A stretch of 25,143 bases of DNA from a virus. Under the pieces are notes generated by a model, which was not told the origin of the DNA, did not search any database, and saw nothing but the letters and a program-made list of their open reading frames with translations. The position numbers were made by a program, and so were the translations under genes. Shown here piece by piece: positions 1,373 through 19,054 of this stretch (its first letter is position 1; every line of letters starts with the position of its first letter). The stretch covers positions 1 to 25,143 of the IMG/VR virus record IMGVR_UViG_3300044971_002269; one strand, written 5' to 3'.

Positions 1373-1611
1373 GCTGTCTGCCGCAGCTCCTCGAGCTGCT
1401 TGATGCCGGCCGGCGTGACCCGCAACGTCCGGGCCATCCCGGCCTGACGCGTCACGAGCCCGTGCCGCTGCATACGCTCAATGTGCTGCTGGACGTTGGC
1501 CGTGCTCTTCCAGCCGAAGGCGGCGCTGATCTCGCGGACCGTCGGCGAGAAGCCGCGGGCAGCGTTCCAGTCGATGATGAATCCCAGAATCTTGGCCTGT
1601 GGTCCTGTCAC
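1369..1611 (-). CDS. LexA-type winged-helix DNA-binding protein without peptidase domain
   Basis: The 80-residue product matches the N-terminal DNA-binding domain of LexA: TGPQAKILGFIIDWNAARGF, then SPTVREISAAFGWKS, then a QQHIERMQRHGLV recognition and wing region. LexA is normally about 200 residues and carries a self-cleaving Ser-Lys peptidase domain. That domain is absent here, so this protein cannot be inactivated by RecA-stimulated self-cleavage. Start is GTG at 1611, overlapping the TGA of the replication gene as GTGA. A regulator of phage early or host SOS-type promoters is the most likely role. A longer open frame to 1839 exists but lies over the replication gene and is rejected. Confidence 0.75.
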   Translation of the reverse strand: MTGPQAKILGFIIDWNAARGFSPTVREISAAFGWKSTANVQQHIERMQRHGLVTRQAGMARTLRVTPAGIKQLEELRQTA

Positions 1612-2468
1612 TGCGTGACCTCCTGTCGTAGTTGATCGACCATCTTCCGGCGTGTGGCTTCCAGCCGTGCCGCGTCGTCGCCAGTCCATCCCTGCGCCGG
1701 TGGCTTGTCGTCCTGGCTGCGGTAGCCGCCAGCCGGCCGCTGGTCCCGCGCGTTGTCGAACTGGCCACCCAGCACCTTGTCCACGAAGCCTTTCGCCACG
1801 AGCTGCGGCAGCGTCACGGGGTCGCGGAAGTATTTGCACCGGGGAAGCTCTTGGATGGCCGCCAGGGCCTTCTCAAACCATCCCTCCTCGGCCAGCCGCT
1901 CGGCCACCTTCTCGGGGGCAGATGGCAGCTTCCACGGGCGGCCTGTGCCAGCAGCCCACGCCTTGCGTAGCGTCTCCCAGCCTGCCGGCTGCTCCGGTCC
2001 TTGCGCAGCACTTCCCGGGGAAGAAGAAGAATTTCTATCTCCTCTATCTCTTCTCTCTAGGGCGCTCGGCGTCCCGGTCGGGGGCGCCACGCGCCCCGGC
2101 TGGGGGCGCTCGGCGCCCCGGGCCTTGTCCACCTGGTGCCGGACGCTGGAAAGAGCCCTTGATTTAGCGGCCTGCGAGAACCGACGCTCCCATCCGGGGA
2201 TCGCCACAGTTCCGTTTTCCGCGTCAATCACGAGCCAGCCCACCGCCTCGACCTCCCGCCAGAACTCCTCGTCACCTCCGCACAGCTTCGCCAGCAGCCG
2301 GACAGACATCCGGGCCGTGCCGTCGGAACTGTTGAGCGCCGCCCAGCCCCACAGCATGAGGAGCCGCCCGACGACTTGGTCCGGCTGGAGGCCGGTACGG
2401 TCGACGAGCTCGAGCACCTCGGGCTTCTGGGGTAGGCACACGTCGTATGGGACCCACTCACCGGCCAT
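1608..2468 (-). CDS. O-like replication initiation protein
   Basis: This is a 286-residue protein with two domains. Residues 1-105 form a winged-helix-like region (WVPYDVCLPQKPEVLELV, GRLLMLWGWAALNSSDGTA, LAKLCGGDEEFWREVEAVGWL) of the type found at the N-terminus of phage replication proteins. Residues 115-165 are a low-complexity Pro/Arg/Ser linker. Residues 170-286 form a helical DnaD-like or primosome-like tail with KYFRDPVTLPQLVAKGFVDKVLGGQFD. Such proteins bind the origin and recruit the helicase. The linker-coding DNA holds three 18-bp units at 22-bp spacing (see 2060-2121), as in lambda gene O. ATG at 2468 overlaps the preceding HNH-like gene by 11 bases. Assignment to this class is by architecture, not by a search. 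Confidence 0.7.
   Translation of the reverse strand: MAGEWVPYDVCLPQKPEVLELVDRTGLQPDQVVGRLLMLWGWAALNSSDGTARMSVRLLAKLCGGDEEFWREVEAVGWLVIDAENGTVAIPGWERRFSQAAKSRALSSVRHQVDKARGAERPQPGRVAPPTGTPSALERRDRGDRNSSSSPGSAAQGPEQPAGWETLRKAWAAGTGRPWKLPSAPEKVAERLAEEGWFEKALAAIQELPRCKYFRDPVTLPQLVAKGFVDKVLGGQFDNARDQRPAGGYRSQDDKPPAQGWTGDDAARLEATRRKMVDQLRQEVTQ
2024..2121. other. Candidate phage replication origin inside the O-like gene
   Basis: An A+T- and pyrimidine-rich stretch (about 2024-2059, with TCTATCTC occurring twice) is directly followed by three GC-rich 18-bp units. It is the most A+T-rich part of a strongly GC-rich gene and could act as the unwinding element. The arrangement of origin-binding units plus easily melted DNA inside the coding sequence of the initiator's linker matches the lambdoid gene O origin. 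This is inferred from sequence architecture only. Confidence 0.45.
2060..2121. repeat. Three iteron-like 18-bp units with 22-bp period
   Basis: The units are GGGCGCTCGGCGTCCCGG (2060-2077), GGGCGCCACGCGCCCCGG (2082-2099) and GGGCGCTCGGCGCCCCGG (2104-2121). The first and third differ at one base. Each is an imperfect inverted repeat (GGGCGC...GCGCCC). Start-to-start distance is exactly 22 bp twice, close to two helical turns. As 22 is not a multiple of three, the repetition is not a protein repeat, which argues for a DNA-level function such as initiator binding. Confidence 0.65.
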
Positions 2469-2904
2469 CCGTGGCCTCCGTTTTTTTGTCGCTCTTCATG
2501 TATTCCTCAATCGACAACTCGCGTCGCTGGTTGTTATGCGCCCTGCACTCAATCTGACCGTTTTCTATGGTCAACGGCCCCCCGTCCCATTTCTGCCAAA
2601 TGTGACCAGCCTCAACTTCATTACAGCACGGCCCTTTACCTCGGTTTCGAAAGTAGCAGTAGATGCCGTGCGTCAACGCGATCCCGACCTTTACTTTCCC
2701 GGGATCACCAGCTTTCCTTAAACGAAGGCTAGCTTGCTCTATTTCGTCTATCGTGAAAGGAAACGCAGAGTCTCCTGTGAGGTTGACCCACTCAGTGAAC
2801 ACCGCCAGAGCAGCGCGGCGACGTTGGTCTGCAGTCGGCCTATCTCCGCCGCCGATGTCTGCCTGACTGATCGCGCACCACAACAACAACTCGGACTGAT
2901 TCAT
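2458..2904 (-). CDS. HNH-like zinc-binding nuclease next to DNA methyltransferase
   Basis: This is a 148-residue protein. The C-terminal half carries CCNEVEAGHIWQKW, then IENGQIECRAHNNQRR: a Cys-Cys pair, a His and a later Cys-x-x-His followed by Asn. This resembles an HNH fold in which the cysteines hold zinc. The N-terminal half (residues 1-85) is helical, with DQRRRAALAVFTEWV. The canonical D-H-I first motif is replaced by E-A-G-H-I, so catalytic competence is uncertain. ATG at 2904 overlaps the methyltransferase stop as ATGA, so the two are made together. It could be a restriction partner, a homing-type nuclease or a recombination nuclease. Confidence 0.6.
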   Translation of the reverse strand: MNQSELLLWCAISQADIGGGDRPTADQRRRAALAVFTEWVNLTGDSAFPFTIDEIEQASLRLRKAGDPGKVKVGIALTHGIYCYFRNRGKGPCCNEVEAGHIWQKWDGGPLTIENGQIECRAHNNQRRELSIEEYMKSDKKTEATDGR

Positions 2905-4121
2905 GATCCCGTAAGCCTTTCTGTTGCTATGTCTGCAAACACCTCGCTCTTCTCAATCCCGACATACTTCCTGCCATTCCGAACGGCTGCCACGCCTGTC
3001 GTTCCGCTGCCGTTAAACGGGTCGACGACCAGGTCGCCTGGCATAGAGGCGCACAGCACGATCGGCTCGACCAGAGCCAGCGGCAACTGTGTTGGGAAGT
3101 CCGGGATCCGCTCGGCGCAGGTGCCAGTGAGCCTCGGTATCTGCCACACGTCATCCCACAGCTTCCCGCCAGCGGCGGCGCGGCTGTCGCCGTACTTCGT
3201 CTGCCTGTCGCTCGGCCTGGTCACCGGGCCAGGATCGAACAAAAACGTATTCGGGTCTTTGACCGCATAGAAAATGTGCCTGCTCGTGCGATTGAACGTG
3301 TTAGAGCAATTGACGCCAAACGTCTCGTACCATTTGATCCACGACCTGATCGTGAGGCCATGAAACTTCAGCGTGGCGTGGTAATCGGCCGCGTACTCGT
3401 CTCCGATCATCACCCACAACGAGCCGTCATCTGTCAGGCAGTCGCAGCAGAGCCGGACCCAGTCGGACACCCACGCCATGTACTCTTCGTCAGGAAGCCT
3501 GTCTTGTTGCTCGCCTTCGCCGTAGTCGATGCCGATGTTGTACGGCGGGTCGGTGAAGATCAGCCGTGCCGGCCCATGCTCGTCTCGCACAGACTCAAGG
3601 CCGTCGAGAACGTCCATGTTCAGGAGCGAAAACTTCGGGCGGTCGGACTGATGCGCGGCCTTGGCGGCCTCCGCGATATCTTTGCGTCGCTTCGCCTTTC
3701 TCTCGTCAGCCTGATGCTTCGACGCCAGCCGCAGGGCGGCCGCCTGCGTCAGCTCCTCGCCTTCCATTCGCGAGTCGTGAATCCACCCATCAAAATCCTT
3801 TTGCGGCACAGAGGCGATGCGCTGGAATCGAGACGATTCCATCTTGTCGATCCCGATCTCAGATAAAGGTAACACGCCGTTACCTTTATTTGGCCTGCCT
3901 TTTTTGACTCCATTGCGAAGCATCTCCCCGATCATCCGCTCCGCGCGCCGGACGATTTCCTGTGCTTCGATGATTGCCTCAATGCCGACATCACGCCGCG
4001 ACTTCGCAAGCTTGATTGCCGCCTCGCCGGCGTCCTTGACGGCCTTTGCGTCCATCGGCGTGTGAGCCGCCCCCAGCATGTCGCGGGCCTTTGCGATCAG
4101 TGCTAGTGATTTGTCTTTCAT
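2901..4121 (-). CDS. Beta-class DNA methyltransferase (N6-adenine or N4-cytosine) with helical N-terminal domain
   Basis: This is a 406-residue protein. The methyltransferase core occupies about residues 160-406: catalytic motif IV is TDPPYN (about 190-195) and the AdoMet-binding motif I is DPFNGSGTT near the C-terminus (about 367-375). The order catalytic motif, target-recognition region, AdoMet motif marks the beta class of amino-methyltransferases. Residues 1-155 are an extra helical region with ERMIGEML and SEIGIDKMESSRFQRIASVP, a module also found in phage ParB-like and DNA-binding proteins. It may supply DNA binding. Start is ATG at 4121, with GGAGGAGG upstream, overlapping the previous TGA as ATGA. 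It probably modifies phage DNA against restriction. The target sequence cannot be predicted. Confidence 0.9.
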   Translation of the reverse strand: MKDKSLALIAKARDMLGAAHTPMDAKAVKDAGEAAIKLAKSRRDVGIEAIIEAQEIVRRAERMIGEMLRNGVKKGRPNKGNGVLPLSEIGIDKMESSRFQRIASVPQKDFDGWIHDSRMEGEELTQAAALRLASKHQADERKAKRRKDIAEAAKAAHQSDRPKFSLLNMDVLDGLESVRDEHGPARLIFTDPPYNIGIDYGEGEQQDRLPDEEYMAWVSDWVRLCCDCLTDDGSLWVMIGDEYAADYHATLKFHGLTIRSWIKWYETFGVNCSNTFNRTSRHIFYAVKDPNTFLFDPGPVTRPSDRQTKYGDSRAAAGGKLWDDVWQIPRLTGTCAERIPDFPTQLPLALVEPIVLCASMPGDLVVDPFNGSGTTGVAAVRNGRKYVGIEKSEVFADIATERLTGS

Positions 4122-4441
4122 GTCGTCCTCCTCCACTCCCTCTCTCGCCGCCCAGTCGCGTTGACCAGATCGCGGCCCGTTGTCTCGATCAGTCCGGCCC
4201 GGCCCATTTCGCCGAGCCGCTTGTTGACCTGGTGCGGCAGCAGCCCGCACCGTGCCGCGATCCCGCTGGCCCCAGCCGGGCCGTCGAGCAACGCCGCGAG
4301 GATCTGTCGCTGGTGGCGTGTCGCCAGCCCGCCGGCCTGTGCTGCCGCCGCGTGGGATGTCGCAGGGTCTGACGACCTGGCTGCGCCGAACAGCGGAAGC
4401 GACTCCTCGATCGGCGGCGTGATCCAGTGCGGCCTGTTCAC
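4118..4441 (-). CDS. Winged-helix DNA-binding protein
   Basis: This is a 107-residue protein with a short leader (SLPLFGAARSSDPATSHAAAA) followed by a winged helix: RHQRQILAALLDGPAGASGIAARCGLLPHQVNKRLGEMGRAGLIETTG. The S-DPATSH-AA leader recurs in phage and prophage HTH proteins. The start is GTG at 4441, which overlaps the TGA of the 49-residue HTH gene as GTGA. Its own TGA overlaps the methyltransferase ATG. It probably acts as a small transcription regulator within this operon. Confidence 0.7.
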   Translation of the reverse strand: MNRPHWITPPIEESLPLFGAARSSDPATSHAAAAQAGGLATRHQRQILAALLDGPAGASGIAARCGLLPHQVNKRLGEMGRAGLIETTGRDLVNATGRREREWRRTT

Positions 4442-5914: not shown

Positions 5915-6871
5915 TCATGCCACGGCATCAGCCACCGCCTCCGGCTCAATCTGCTGGTGCCGCATAGTCACGAAAGCCGTGAGCTGCAGGGCCGCTTCCG
6001 GCGTCAACTGGCCTTCCGAGACCAGCACATCTATCCGGTCGGCGATCTTTCCCAGCGTCCGCACGGACGTTGCCTGTGCGATGTGATTGGCAATCTTGAT
6101 TCCGAGCGGCTCCTCGACAGGCATGCCGCCCCCTGTACCGCCGGTAGCGTCAGCGGTTCTTGCAGGCTCCGGCGCCGGAGCCACAGGGGACGGGAGCCCG
6201 TCGGAGAGCCAATCGGCGAGCTGCTGGCCAAAGTCTTCGCCGGGCCGGTCGATCAGCTTGTCTTGGAACTTGCCCGTGCGGTCCTTGATCACGTTGGCGA
6301 TGTGCTCGGTCGAGATCTCAACGAGGAGATCAAACTCGTACTCAACGCCCTTGCCCTGCTCGGGGGCGAGGCCGACACGCTGGGGCGTCTTCTTGCCGTT
6401 GTTGTCCACGGTCGTCCACTCGGTCTTCGACCGCATCGTTGCGATCACGTGGCCCGGGTAGTTGAGGATGGCCTGCACCAGGCGGCGCTGGTGCGGCGTG
6501 CCCTCGCTCCACGCGCTCCACGTGTTTCCCCTGTACTTCGCTTTCGCCAGCTTCTCGACCTCCTCGAGCAGCGTTTGCCAGCCGTGCGAGAGACTGTCGA
6601 TCACCAGGACCTTGTAGCCGGCCTTGGCGGCCTCTTTGATCGCGGCCACGTAGCCGTCGATGGTCTGGTCCTCAAGCTCCAGCACGTCGAACGAAAAGCG
6701 GTCGGCGTACTTGCTGGCCGAGCCACGCTCGGTGTCGATGACTGCAATCGGGCTGCCACCGGCCAGGCCCGTTGCCACGCGGAGGCTCGTAAACGTTTTC
6801 CCGGCCCCGCTGGGGCCGAAGATCGCCGCGTGAAGGTTTGCTGCTGCCTTTGTCGCTTTCTTGAATCCCAT
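5915..6871 (-). CDS. RecA-like AAA ATPase, phage recombination (Sak/AAA_24 type)
   Basis: This is a 318-residue P-loop ATPase: Walker A GPSGAGKT (residues 19-26), Walker B KVLVIDS (87-93), and a sensor-like region HVIATMRSKTEW (about 143-154). Length and order match the phage nucleotide-binding/Sak-type single-strand annealing or RecA-like ATPases that pair with DUF669-like SSB genes. Residues 215-260 are a Pro/Ala/Gly linker to a C-terminal helical segment. ATG at 6871 is chosen because AAAGGA precedes it at 8 bases and the strong homology begins there. A start at 7051 would overlap the upstream gene. It probably catalyses strand annealing or exchange for phage DNA replication. Confidence 0.88.
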   Translation of the reverse strand: MGFKKATKAAANLHAAIFGPSGAGKTFTSLRVATGLAGGSPIAVIDTERGSASKYADRFSFDVLELEDQTIDGYVAAIKEAAKAGYKVLVIDSLSHGWQTLLEEVEKLAKAKYRGNTWSAWSEGTPHQRRLVQAILNYPGHVIATMRSKTEWTTVDNNGKKTPQRVGLAPEQGKGVEYEFDLLVEISTEHIANVIKDRTGKFQDKLIDRPGEDFGQQLADWLSDGLPSPVAPAPEPARTADATGGTGGGMPVEEPLGIKIANHIAQATSVRTLGKIADRIDVLVSEGQLTPEAALQLTAFVTMRHQQIEPEAVADAVA

Positions 6872-7020
6872 CTCTGCGTCCTTTGCTACTGGTGCTACTG
6901 ATGTGAAAAGCCCGTTTCGCGTCGTGCTGGCGGGCGGATGAATGCGTCCCTGCTGCTGCCGTCTCCGACGGCTCTCCTTCCGGCCTGCGGTTCCACCGCC
7001 GGCCGGTCCTGTTTGGTCGG

Positions 7021-7272
7021 TCAGAACGGGAGCAAGTTCCCGATCGGCCACGGCCGCGGGTCGACCTCGACGATGTCGTCGGCGGTCTCCACCAGGAGCA
7101 GGCCGTTGTGGTGGTCAGTCACGCGGCCGTCGTCGTATGAGCTGTCGCTCCAGCCGTGCAGCCGGAACGAAACGTGGTCGCCGATGGCGTGGCAGTCGAG
7201 GGCTCGGCTGGTGGGTGTCTGCTCGTGCAGGCCGCAGGCTGCGGCGACGTATTCGGCGTGATGTGCATCCAT
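7021..7272 (-). CDS. Hypothetical small phage protein
   Basis: This is an 83-residue acidic protein with many His and Asp residues (MDAHHAEY, SYDDGRVTDHHNGLLLVETADDIVEVD). It is not recognised. The middle (HVSFRLHGWSDSSYDDGRVTDHHNGLLLVET) could be a small beta barrel. ATG at 7272 is preceded by AAGGAG at 8 bases, a strong ribosome site. It is the first gene of the early operon after the repeat-bearing region at 7348-7369. A 149-base gap without a visible gene separates it from the ATPase. Confidence 0.65.
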   Translation of the reverse strand: MDAHHAEYVAAACGLHEQTPTSRALDCHAIGDHVSFRLHGWSDSSYDDGRVTDHHNGLLLVETADDIVEVDPRPWPIGNLLPF

Positions 7273-11818: not shown

Positions 11819-12091
11819 TTACCAATTTCCCCCATCTACGATGTCGGTCTCTGGTGAGTTACGCCACTTTGAATTGCTGAACCGCAGCACGTCGCCAGGC
11901 TGGGCCGACGTGATCTGGACGTTGCTGAGCTGCTCGAGCGGGCCGCCGCTCGTGCCGGCCGGCCCCTGAGGACCAACGCCGCCGCTCGCCAACACAGACG
12001 AGCTTGAGCTCGTGACGGCCGCCGACACGCCGCTCGAGGTGACGGTCGCCGAGATCAGTTGGGGTGTGACTGTCGCGGATATGCTGCTCAT
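11819..12091 (-). CDS. Small collagen-like fibre protein
   Basis: This is a 90-residue protein. Residues 1-37 are Ser/Thr/Val-rich strands (ISATVTPQLISATVTSSG), then a short collagen-like turn GGVGPQGPAGTSGGP, then QPGDVLRFSNSKWRNSPETDIVDGGNW. The last part (D-V-L-R-F-x-x-x-K-W-x-N) is a common phage fibre end. The terminal DGGNW resembles DGGTY in the neighbouring fibre and DGGDY in the Ig-domain protein. ATG at 12091 lies one base after the TGA of the membrane-protein gene. Confidence 0.7.
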   Translation of the reverse strand: MSSISATVTPQLISATVTSSGVSAAVTSSSSSVLASGGVGPQGPAGTSGGPLEQLSNVQITSAQPGDVLRFSNSKWRNSPETDIVDGGNW

Positions 12092-15363: not shown

Positions 15364-17253
15364 TCACGACACCGTGAGTGTTGCGGGCTGGCTAGTCACG
15401 CTTGACGCACTCGCTGCCGACACGACCACGCGGAAGCGGTCAGCGTTGTCTACGGAGTTGGTCAATCCGGTCAGGGCGAGCGTGGAGGATGTCGCGCCGG
15501 AGACGTTGGCGAAATCGGACTGACCAGCGAGCGTGATCGTCGCTGCGATGCTGCTGTTGTAGGCCACCACGACGAACGTGCCGTCGCCATAGGTGACGGT
15601 CTGCCAGCTTGCGCTTACGGGCAGCGTCCTCTGCATCCATGTGATGCCGTCAGTGCTTGTAGCTGCGATGTTGCCGCTAGTGGCAACTGCGACGAACGTG
15701 CCGCCGCTGTAGGTAACGCTAGTCCAGCTAGTGGCGACAGGCAGCGTCCTCTGCGTCCAAGTTATGCCGTCAGTGCTTGTCGCTGCGATGCCGCCGCCGT
15801 AAGCCACTGCGACAAAAATGCCGTTTCCGTAAGCGACGGCATACCAGTTTGCGGCGTTCTGCGAAGGCAGCGTCCTCTGCGTCCAAGTGATGCCGTCGGT
15901 GCTTGTCGCCGCGATGTTGCCGCTTTGAGACACGGCGACGAACGTGCCGTTGCCATGAGCGATTGCAGTCCATGAGGTACTAGCAGGCAGAGTCCTCTGT
16001 GTCCAAGTGATGCCGTCAGGGCTTGTGGCTGCGATACTGCTGCCTTGAGCGGCCGAAACGAAAAGTCCGCCGCCAAAGGCTACGTCAACCCACTGTGCGC
16101 TCGTAGGCAGGGTCCGCTGCGTCCAAGTGATTCCGTCTGCGCTTGTGGCTGCTATGGTGCTTCCTTCAGCCACCGCGACAAAAATGCCGTTTCCATAGGT
16201 GACGCCCAACCAAGAGGCCTGTGCAGGCATCGTCCTTAGCGTCCAAGTGATGCCGTCGGGGCTTGTGGCTGCGACGTTGCCGCCGTAAGACATTGCGACA
16301 AACGTGCCGTTGCCGTAAGCGACCCTACTCCACGGTCTAGACGCAGGCATCGTCCTCTGCGTTGCAGCGAAACCCGCCGAATCGCTCTTCTGCCACTGAT
16401 AACTCAAAGTTCCGCTTGGCTCCGCAATCGCAGTCACGCCGAACGACGCTGCTCCGCTGCTTGCCGTCTGGTTCGTCGGCGGCGACGTGATCGTGATCGA
16501 CCGAGACAGGCCGCTGCCGCCGTAAAACCACTCGCCGTCAATGTCGTCGCCTGCTGCAATCGTGATAGTCGATCCGCTGGCAGTCAGCGTCACATTGTTG
16601 CCAGCCGCCAGCGTCAACGCGCCCGTCAGATTGTTGAGCCCAGTAACGTATGGGTGAGCGTGATTCGCAGCCGCAGCCCCCAGCGTTGAAAGAGACGGCA
16701 GTAGGTGGACGTGGTCGCTCCTGCTAGCCGTTGAGCTTGTGCCAGCCGAGGCCGTGCCGAGAGCCGCCGGCGTGGCGTCGGAGAGCGAAGCACCGCCGCC
16801 AGACCCGTCAGCACCTCGCGGGATGCCGAACGCCAGGGCGACGTTGGCGCCGCCATTACTCGGCGTGGCCGTGACGGTAGCCGAACTGCCAGCCGAGAGC
16901 GTGGAGGCTGTGGCCGTGATCGTGGGCGTGGGGCCAGCGGCGCCGGTGGCGCCGGTGGCACCGGTCGCCCCGGCCGGAATGCCAAACGCCAGCGACAGGT
17001 TCGCCCCGTTGTTGCTCGAGGTGCCCACCACCGTGGCCGAGCTGCCGGCCGCAAGCGTCGACACGCTGCCGACCGTGATGGTGGTGCTCGGCGGCCCCTG
17101 CGGCCCCGTCGCCCCGATGCCGCCTGGTGCAGCGGCCGCGGACGCGGAGACGCTCACCACGGCGTTCTTGGTCACGGCCGCCGAGATCGTGTCGCCGTTA
17201 GTGGCGACGACCGACGGGCCGCTCTTGCCGTTGACAGTGACGGTTACGCTCAC
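15364..17253 (-). CDS. Tail fibre protein: collagen-like tracts plus seven-bladed propeller inserted in an Ig-like domain
   Basis: This is a 629-residue protein. GTG at 17253 overlaps the preceding TGA as GTGA. In order it has: an N-terminal beta region, collagen-like GATGPQGPP (about 48-56), two copies of a T-V-G-S-x-S-T-L-A-A-G-S-S-A-T-V / N-G-A-N-L-S-L-A-F-G-I-P module separated by a GATGATGATGAAGP tract, His-rich DHVHLLP and NHAHPYVTGL, and the first half of an Ig-like domain ending YQWQKSD (to about 293). Seven 40-residue units then follow, with W..VAYGNGTFVAV...G.IAATS.DGITWTQRTLP (about 294-572). The second Ig half (FANVSGATSSTLALTGL to the end) closes the chain. The first blade strand (AATQRTMPAS) comes from the N-terminal side and the last unit lacks it, as in a velcro-closed propeller. 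Confidence 0.82.
   Translation of the reverse strand: MSVTVTVNGKSGPSVVATNGDTISAAVTKNAVVSVSASAAAAPGGIGATGPQGPPSTTITVGSVSTLAAGSSATVVGTSSNNGANLSLAFGIPAGATGATGATGAAGPTPTITATASTLSAGSSATVTATPSNGGANVALAFGIPRGADGSGGGASLSDATPAALGTASAGTSSTASRSDHVHLLPSLSTLGAAAANHAHPYVTGLNNLTGALTLAAGNNVTLTASGSTITIAAGDDIDGEWFYGGSGLSRSITITSPPTNQTASSGAASFGVTAIAEPSGTLSYQWQKSDSAGFAATQRTMPASRPWSRVAYGNGTFVAMSYGGNVAATSPDGITWTLRTMPAQASWLGVTYGNGIFVAVAEGSTIAATSADGITWTQRTLPTSAQWVDVAFGGGLFVSAAQGSSIAATSPDGITWTQRTLPASTSWTAIAHGNGTFVAVSQSGNIAATSTDGITWTQRTLPSQNAANWYAVAYGNGIFVAVAYGGGIAATSTDGITWTQRTLPVATSWTSVTYSGGTFVAVATSGNIAATSTDGITWMQRTLPVSASWQTVTYGDGTFVVVAYNSSIAATITLAGQSDFANVSGATSSTLALTGLTNSVDNADRFRVVVSAASASSVTSQPATLTVS
15540..16375 (-). 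repeat. Seven tandem 120-bp coding repeats (propeller blades)
   Basis: The TGG codon of the DGITW motif recurs at 15637, 15757, 15883, 16003, 16123 and 16243, and the matching position of the diverged first unit is at 16363. Spacing is 120 bp except one 126-bp interval. Long stretches of the units are identical at the DNA level, so they probably arose by recent tandem duplication and could expand or contract by recombination. Confidence 0.85.
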
Positions 17254-18087: not shown

Positions 18088-19054
18088 GTGTTAGCCTCAT
18101 GTTGACAGTGACGGTCTTGGAAAGAAACCAGCTAGCACCGCTCCCAGTAGGAATGCTTGGGCTTACCGGCGTGGAGGTGACAGACTGCGTAACCGTGTTT
18201 GCGCCGGTTCCGTCTATATACTGAAAAACGTAATAAAGTGCATTGTATTCTGAGGCTTGGGGGTCATAAGTCCACGCCCAATACGGCGACACAGACGAGC
18301 CGGAAGCAGTTGCGGCAATAAGACTTGGGCAATCAACCGTCGCATATATCTTGCAAGGTGAGGACGAAAAACCGACTGAGGCAGTCCGTGACCCTGCGTA
18401 CCCTGGGCACGACCCTTGTAGAGACGCTGTGCAATTGGATGCGCTTGCGTTGCTGGTAAATGTCGCACTGAGGCTTGCCGCTGTATCAATCCAAGCCCCG
18501 AAGGCTGGGTCTTCGCACGGCTTTTGTGCCCAGCATCCGTTGTATGTCTGTCCGTTCGGGCACCCCACGAACCCGTTGCCGCCAGCGCACCACCTCGCAG
18601 TAGGCAGTGAATCCGTAGAGACAACAATCGTCGCCATTTTCCCGGCAATTGTCTCGCCGTTCCCGCAACAGCCGCACGGCCCTGCCGCACACGTTGTGCC
18701 CACGCCCTGGAACACCTTGTTGGGAGTGCCGGTTAACGCTGCGCACCAAGCTCCTGCCGCGCCAGTTTTTTCGTCCCTAACGCAGTTGCCGCCAACCACC
18801 CATGTGCCCCCGCGCTGAATACATTGAGATTCTGACTCGCTCCTGCATCGTGGTGCAGAAGTGCCAGACACATCAACAGTGTCTGGACCGCAACAAACAC
18901 CAGACGGCACGCACTGACACTGCGGCTTGACCGTGCACGTCGTGCCCTCGCAGCACGCGCCCTCTTTGCAAGCTTGGTTGCACTCGGCCTCGGTGCGGTA
19001 AGAGCCAGACGAGGCGGCAGTGCCGTTGAATGTGGAGACTTGGCGACAGGGCAT
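18080..19054 (-). CDS. Cysteine-rich tail-associated protein
   Basis: This is a 324-residue protein with 26 cysteines. Residues 1-185 hold most of them, in tight groups: EAECNQACKEGACCEGTTC, PQCQCVPSGVCCGPD, CAAGPCGCCGNGE. SQCIQRGGTWVVGGNCV resembles a repeated C...GG.W..G..C motif. Residues 200-324 are beta-rich (WIDTAASLSATFTSNASASN, YWAWTYDP, FLSKTVTVNMRLTL). ATG at 19054, 4 bases after the previous stop, is chosen. A longer frame to 19141 would overlap that gene and has no ribosome site. It is probably an exposed tail or baseplate part stabilised by disulfides. Confidence 0.65.
   Translation of the reverse strand: MPCRQVSTFNGTAASSGSYRTEAECNQACKEGACCEGTTCTVKPQCQCVPSGVCCGPDTVDVSGTSAPRCRSESESQCIQRGGTWVVGGNCVRDEKTGAAGAWCAALTGTPNKVFQGVGTTCAAGPCGCCGNGETIAGKMATIVVSTDSLPTARWCAGGNGFVGCPNGQTYNGCWAQKPCEDPAFGAWIDTAASLSATFTSNASASNCTASLQGSCPGYAGSRTASVGFSSSPCKIYATVDCPSLIAATASGSSVSPYWAWTYDPQASEYNALYYVFQYIDGTGANTVTQSVTSTPVSPSIPTGSGASWFLSKTVTVNMRLTLA

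Follow-up and report, generated by a model that had tools for sequence, protein, structure and literature searches.

We identified, inside a freshwater phage's gene for a replication initiator (P0001), an ordered array of three short inverted repeats joined to a purine- and A+T-rich tract, which together very probably form a phage replication origin on the lambda plan, in which the initiator would bind the repeats (iterons) and the adjacent tract would melt. The analysed window is a whole virus record of IMG/VR (IMGVR_UViG_3300044971_002269; 25,143 bases), a fragment of about 25 kb whose relevant features are collected in Table 1. The dyad, GGGCGC-n3-GCGCCC, occurs three times at exact 22-bp steps on the minus strand, at about nucleotides 350-409 of the gene and between the stretches that encode the DNA-binding and C-terminal domains. 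The preliminary description of this DNA had placed repeats 22 bp apart at 2060, 2082 and 2104; all of them are present, and a single base distinguishes unit 1 from unit 3. A repeat at the protein level, already discounted in that description, was ruled out because a period of 22 does not divide by three, so that successive units are read in different frames. Chance was ruled out as the source of the array by shuffling the synonymous codons of the gene: none of 5,000 shuffles reached the observed triple-repeat score of 29 (the maximum was 27), which is also the highest such score in the entire 25-kb window. The single motif is not rare when three mismatches are allowed (8 matches in the window, 7 expected). 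The exceptional feature is the ordered 22-bp array, not the single motif, and a motif search of the window found no second array. Repeats of other kinds occur elsewhere in the window: about six tandem 120-bp repeats (15539-16362) in a 650-aa tail-fibre-like gene, with the motif 'GNGTFVAV..TSTDGITWTQRTLP', and a three-copy 27-bp repeat (12008-12082), probably protein-coding since its period is a multiple of three.

Table 1. Features of the initiator gene and its candidate origin (window coordinates; iterons numbered in gene order).
Feature	Position	Strand	Basis or remark
Replication initiator gene P0001, 286 aa	1608..2468	(-)	phrog_2509 match
Winged-helix DNA-binding domain, residues 1-98	2175..2468	(-)	AlphaFold2 model, 83 relatives
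Proposed specificity segment, residues 106-115 (LSSVRHQVDK) of helix 99-120	2124..2153	(-)	Co-variation with iteron classes
Iteron 1, GGGCGC-CGA-GCGCCC	2104..2118	(-)	Perfect dyad
Iteron 2, GGGCGC-GTG-GCGCCC	2082..2096	(-)	Perfect dyad
Iteron 3, GGACGC-CGA-GCGCCC	2060..2074	(-)	One arm mismatch
Purine-rich/A+T-rich tract AGAGAGAAGAGATAGAGGAGATAGAAATTCTTCTTCTTCC, proposed unwinding element	2019..2058	(-)	Frozen codons, low stability
GCTGCG just past the tract	2004..2009	(-)	Codons GCT 46/46, GCG 45/46
C-terminal domain, residues 164-286	1611..1979	(-)	Conserved in relatives

A profile search matched residues 1-122 of P0001 to phrog_2509, annotated 'replication initiation protein' (E 3e-21); the match stops at residue 122, leaving the C-terminal half unmatched and the C-terminus different. 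Pfam profiles gave no match to P0001, and a GenBank megablast search with the window matched no close phage genome. The AlphaFold2 model of the N-terminal region, built with 83 relatives (mean pLDDT 92), predicts a winged helix (residues 1-98) followed by a long helix (99-120), and the full-length protein was modeled poorly (pLDDT 58). The viral models nearest to the N-terminal model are phage replisome-organizer-type proteins. Fold searches returned weak generic winged-helix matches only, and no useful relative was found among solved structures, the single sequence match being chain C3HR3_9r_shift4, apparently a designed protein. Along the gene, the winged helix is followed by the helix, the three dyads, the tract and the C-terminal domain, and the codons for the end of the helix overlap the start of the array. 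We propose that the C-terminal domain contacts host replication proteins; in distant relatives it is exchanged for other C-termini, e.g., DnaT (PF17948). The replication/recombination module of the window also carries a DNA N6/N4 methyltransferase gene (2901-4250), with genes for a Sak4-like ATPase (5915-7051) and a RusA resolvase (469-927) nearby. The GC skew of the 25-kb fragment was uninformative.

The tract directly adjoins the iterons on the downstream side, the third iteron ending 1 nucleotide before its AGAGAG sequence. The repeat-bearing A+T-rich run reported earlier beside the array was recovered as TCTATCTCC repeats at 2034-2058. Because the gene is on the minus strand, the gene order is iterons and then tract, as in lambda. 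The interval 2024-2059 (33% GC) has the lowest stability of any 36-bp window in the gene (-40.6 kcal/mol, where the mean is -56.8 and the sd 4.2) and ranks second least stable in the contig. The contig's least stable 36-bp stretch lies at 18214-18249, outside the candidate origin region. Across 46 related genes, synonymous identity averaged 0.98 in the tract codons (138-150) and 0.69 in the gene as a whole, and AGA at residues 142 and 145 and TCT at residue 148 are used in 46/46 genes, although these fixed codons stand within a GC-rich gene. Such freezing of the tract codons while the protein linkers differ freely shows that the constraint is on the DNA.

A scan of viral contigs recovered 63 relatives; the 46 genes compared are non-identical and full length and include that of the window, the relatives among them having 67-94% protein identity. 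All 46 carry the array at the same place. The dyads are spaced exactly 22 bp apart in 81 of 85 steps and 21 bp apart in the other four, all of which belong to one half-site class (class C, see below); the 85 steps leave out a 31-bp step produced by a spurious weak unit in relative L023. The dyad arms are nearly fixed and the loops vary freely, with 22 different loops in class A. Relative L033 has four units, and its extra 22-bp unit, combined with a start 1 bp earlier, amounts to a net 21 nucleotides that keeps the frame. In eight class B genes only two units were detected at the cut-off used, the third being degenerate. The protein linkers vary freely between classes, and the array is therefore conserved at the DNA level and not at the protein level. 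Thus, the alignment of relatives suggested in the preliminary description revealed a 22-bp spacing that is kept while the linker residues change. Rather than losing the repeats and keeping the linker, the relatives keep the repeats, their period and the tract.

Scans with broader alignments, together with annotated phages, extended the comparison to 337 non-identical genes, with prophage relatives in Pseudomonas, Stenotrophomonas, enterobacteria, Planctomycetes, Verrucomicrobia and Akkermansia. In about 330 relatives from many phyla, with identity falling to about 30%, an array and a AGAGAAGA-type tract are kept at the same site with other half-sites. Seven half-site classes account for 326 of the 337 genes and other arrays for about eight more, and in three (L122, L123 and L227) no array was recognizable. 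GTAACG and GTCCGC are the commonest half-sites in the wider family, and the last half-site commonly abuts a (C/T)AGAGAAGA-type purine run. Measured from the last half-site, direct copies are most frequent at 11 bp and next at 22 or 44 bp, distances that would place the copies on one face of the helix. Named members of phrog_2509/phrog_9474 include the YdaU-like protein of Escherichia phage Rac (MN652886) and proteins of Xanthomonas CP2, Pseudomonas PAN70 and Salmonella SPN1S. Like the window, they combine a homologous N-terminal domain with a gene-internal array and tract; unlike it, they have GTAACG or GTCCGC half-sites instead of GGGCGC and different C-termini, some of the DnaT type. Three relatives from MAGs or contigs (L121, L130 and L131) keep the array and purine tract although their reading frame ends at or before the array, and are possibly domain-only initiators or metagenome assembly errors.

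Within the 46-gene subfamily the half-site comes in three versions, GGGCGC (class A, 25 genes), GTGCGC (class B, 17 genes) and ACGCGC (class C, 4 genes), and the version changes in concert across all units of one phage. The half-site co-varies with the helix that follows the winged helix. Outside the stretch that encodes the iterons, information about the class lies mainly in residues 106-115 (a mean of 0.76 bits, against 0.08-0.12 elsewhere), and positions 107 and 111 assign all 46 genes to their iteron classes without exception. Proteins 96-97% identical over residues 1-100 can be of different classes, in which case the helix differs too (L046 vs. the window; L056 vs. L040). In a tree built from codons 1-104, the helix label agrees with the class in 46/46 genes over about five class changes, two of them forced by well-supported branches; this tree co-variation is suggestive, the events being too few for a formal sign test. 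Nearest-neighbor prediction of the class in the subfamily succeeded in 49/49 cases by helix vs. 39/49 by winged helix. Family-wide, the helix outperformed the winged helix when relatives at least 90% identical were excluded (251/261 vs. 237/261), the two tied at 70% exclusion, and at 50% exclusion, which leaves rare classes without comparators, the helix gave 176 and the winged helix 119. The columns aligned to residues 111 and 107 are the two most informative in the family, and the corrected mutual information averages 0.58 for the helix and 0.47 for the winged helix, but ancestry confounds this broader test. Hence, it is the subfamily and the natural swaps that carry the argument for a code.

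Such swaps are found among distant relatives. L129 and L130 have winged helices that are 86% identical, yet differ in their helices and use GTAACG and GTCCGC, respectively. The helix of L130 (DAERKRNVR) resembles that of Salmonella SPN1S (DADRKRNVR), and both use GTCCGC. Limnohabitans L124 and Planctomycetota L131 likewise share RQARWR and GTAGACG-type sites. From these sequence comparisons we lean slightly towards a recognition code in which residues 106-115, chiefly 107 and 111, would set the half-site, and in which helix and iterons, encoded within about 100 bp, would be exchanged as one cassette that switches origin specificity and leaves the rest of the initiator unchanged. A possible but less probable account, also compatible with an origin, is that helix and iterons match through being encoded side by side and swapped jointly by recombination, with no contact between them. 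The distance from the helix codons to the first iteron is indeed no more than about 30 bp, and the small number of class changes on the subfamily tree also leaves room for this account. However, the association falls at once upstream of the segment, to a mean of 0.10 bits in residues 99-105, and DA(D/E)RKRNVR is paired with GTCCGC in the distant winged-helix backgrounds of Salmonella SPN1S and the Verrucomicrobia relative L130.

An origin with these components could work as follows. The winged-helix domain and helix 99-120 would bind the three two-fold symmetric iterons, whose spacing of 22 bp, or two DNA turns, would set the bound proteins on one face. By analogy with lambda, several initiator dimers on the phased dyads may wrap or stress the DNA, and their assembly would destabilize the adjoining tract and provide an opening for helicase loading. 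The C-terminal domain would then recruit the host replicative helicase, directly or through an unrecognized partner. DnaB_C and IstB/DnaC profiles had no match in the contigs of seven relatives (31-40 kb and perhaps incomplete; the search did not cover lambda P), which, like the three relatives with no recognizable array, counts against the proposed origin. Several annotated relatives sit ahead of dnaC or dnaC-dnaB genes.

Many replication initiators also autoregulate, and the initiator-bound array could in principle serve mainly for autoregulation or copy-number control, with the true start of replication elsewhere. We consider this very unlikely, given the frozen A+T-rich tract that adjoins the array in the lambda order and the single array in the window. 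The perfect or near-perfect symmetry of each unit would also allow the dyads to fold as hairpins in the initiator mRNA, e.g., for translational or transcriptional control. Hairpins, however, would require neither arms shared within a phage nor exact 22-bp steps nor co-variation with a protein helix; the half-sites of distant relatives are often spaced direct or inverted copies, and the window has no Rfam match, all of which makes this function highly improbable. Least credible is that another regulator uses the array as its operator. The 80-aa LexA-like product of the adjacent downstream gene (1369-1611) would be a candidate, having a LexA-type DNA-binding domain, and a dimeric repressor would fit two-fold sites; yet in distant relatives the array persists although the next annotated gene is a different one, often dnaC-like, and it is with residues of the initiator that the half-site co-varies.

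The proposed origin can be compared with those of lambda and its relatives. The plan is established for lambda, as is the idea that initiators differ in the gene-internal repeats they bind, and both have been proposed for phages P22 and L, with repeats inside gene 18 (PMC8022706; PMC7466680). Like the window, the lambda origin and the P22 and L genes have repeats inside the initiator gene, between the N- and C-terminal domains, followed by an A+T/purine-rich tract. The array spans nearly the same codons in all of them, and the repeats differ between phages. The lambda iterons (nucleotides 349-432 of gene O, with a purine/A+T-rich tract behind them) read ATCCCTCAAAACGAGGGA at steps of 20, 24 and 23 bp, in contrast to the GC-rich units of the window and their exact 22-bp steps. 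A further difference from lambda O is the co-variation of the repeat sequence with the helix that follows the winged helix. The profile of the lambda protein family (PF04492, Phage_rep_O), which recognizes lambda O itself with an E value of 6e-36, matched neither P0001 (threshold E<=0.1) nor any of six relatives (threshold E<=1), and profile-profile comparisons of the window family with PF04492 gave probabilities of 1.9% and 0.3%. Thus, the preliminary reading of an O-like gene on the lambda plan stands for the order and position of the elements, which are those of the annotated lambda origin, but not for the DNA-binding domain, which is not detectably PF04492.

A parallel case comes from the Rac prophage of E. 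coli K-12, which is described as having an active origin, oriJ (PMC3945230). As in the window, there are repeats in the linker of its ydaU gene, and the C-terminus is common to the phage relative, with 100 of the last 120 residues shared with the protein of Escherichia phage Rac. Unlike the window, the N-terminal domain of K-12 YdaU is of another DNA-binding family, DUF1376 (PF07120), unrelated to that of phage Rac. The linker repeats differ as well, GTAACGC in phage Rac and TGTTCAAACA in K-12 ydaU, and the repeats travel with the DNA-binding domain. In the K-12 linker (L541:1175-1290), TGTTCAAACA is present as two direct copies 33 bp apart and one inverted copy, marking a candidate oriJ region. 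The DUF1376 domain rules out K-12 YdaU and oriJ as a direct experimental anchor, and we treat them as an analogous case only.

The general plan of an intragenic origin is already known; what is new is its family-wide demonstration for this group of initiators and the correspondence between helix and half-site. A search of the open-access literature, with subscription papers outside its reach, found no description of origins for the family. The comparisons assign a candidate origin and a putative binding site to an initiator family of hundreds of phages and prophages, many of whose members are annotated merely as 'hypothetical' or 'primosomal protein I'. Should the recognition code hold true, the origin specificity of such phages would be readable from about ten residues, and initiator/origin co-evolution and the differing replication specificity of close phages would become directly testable.
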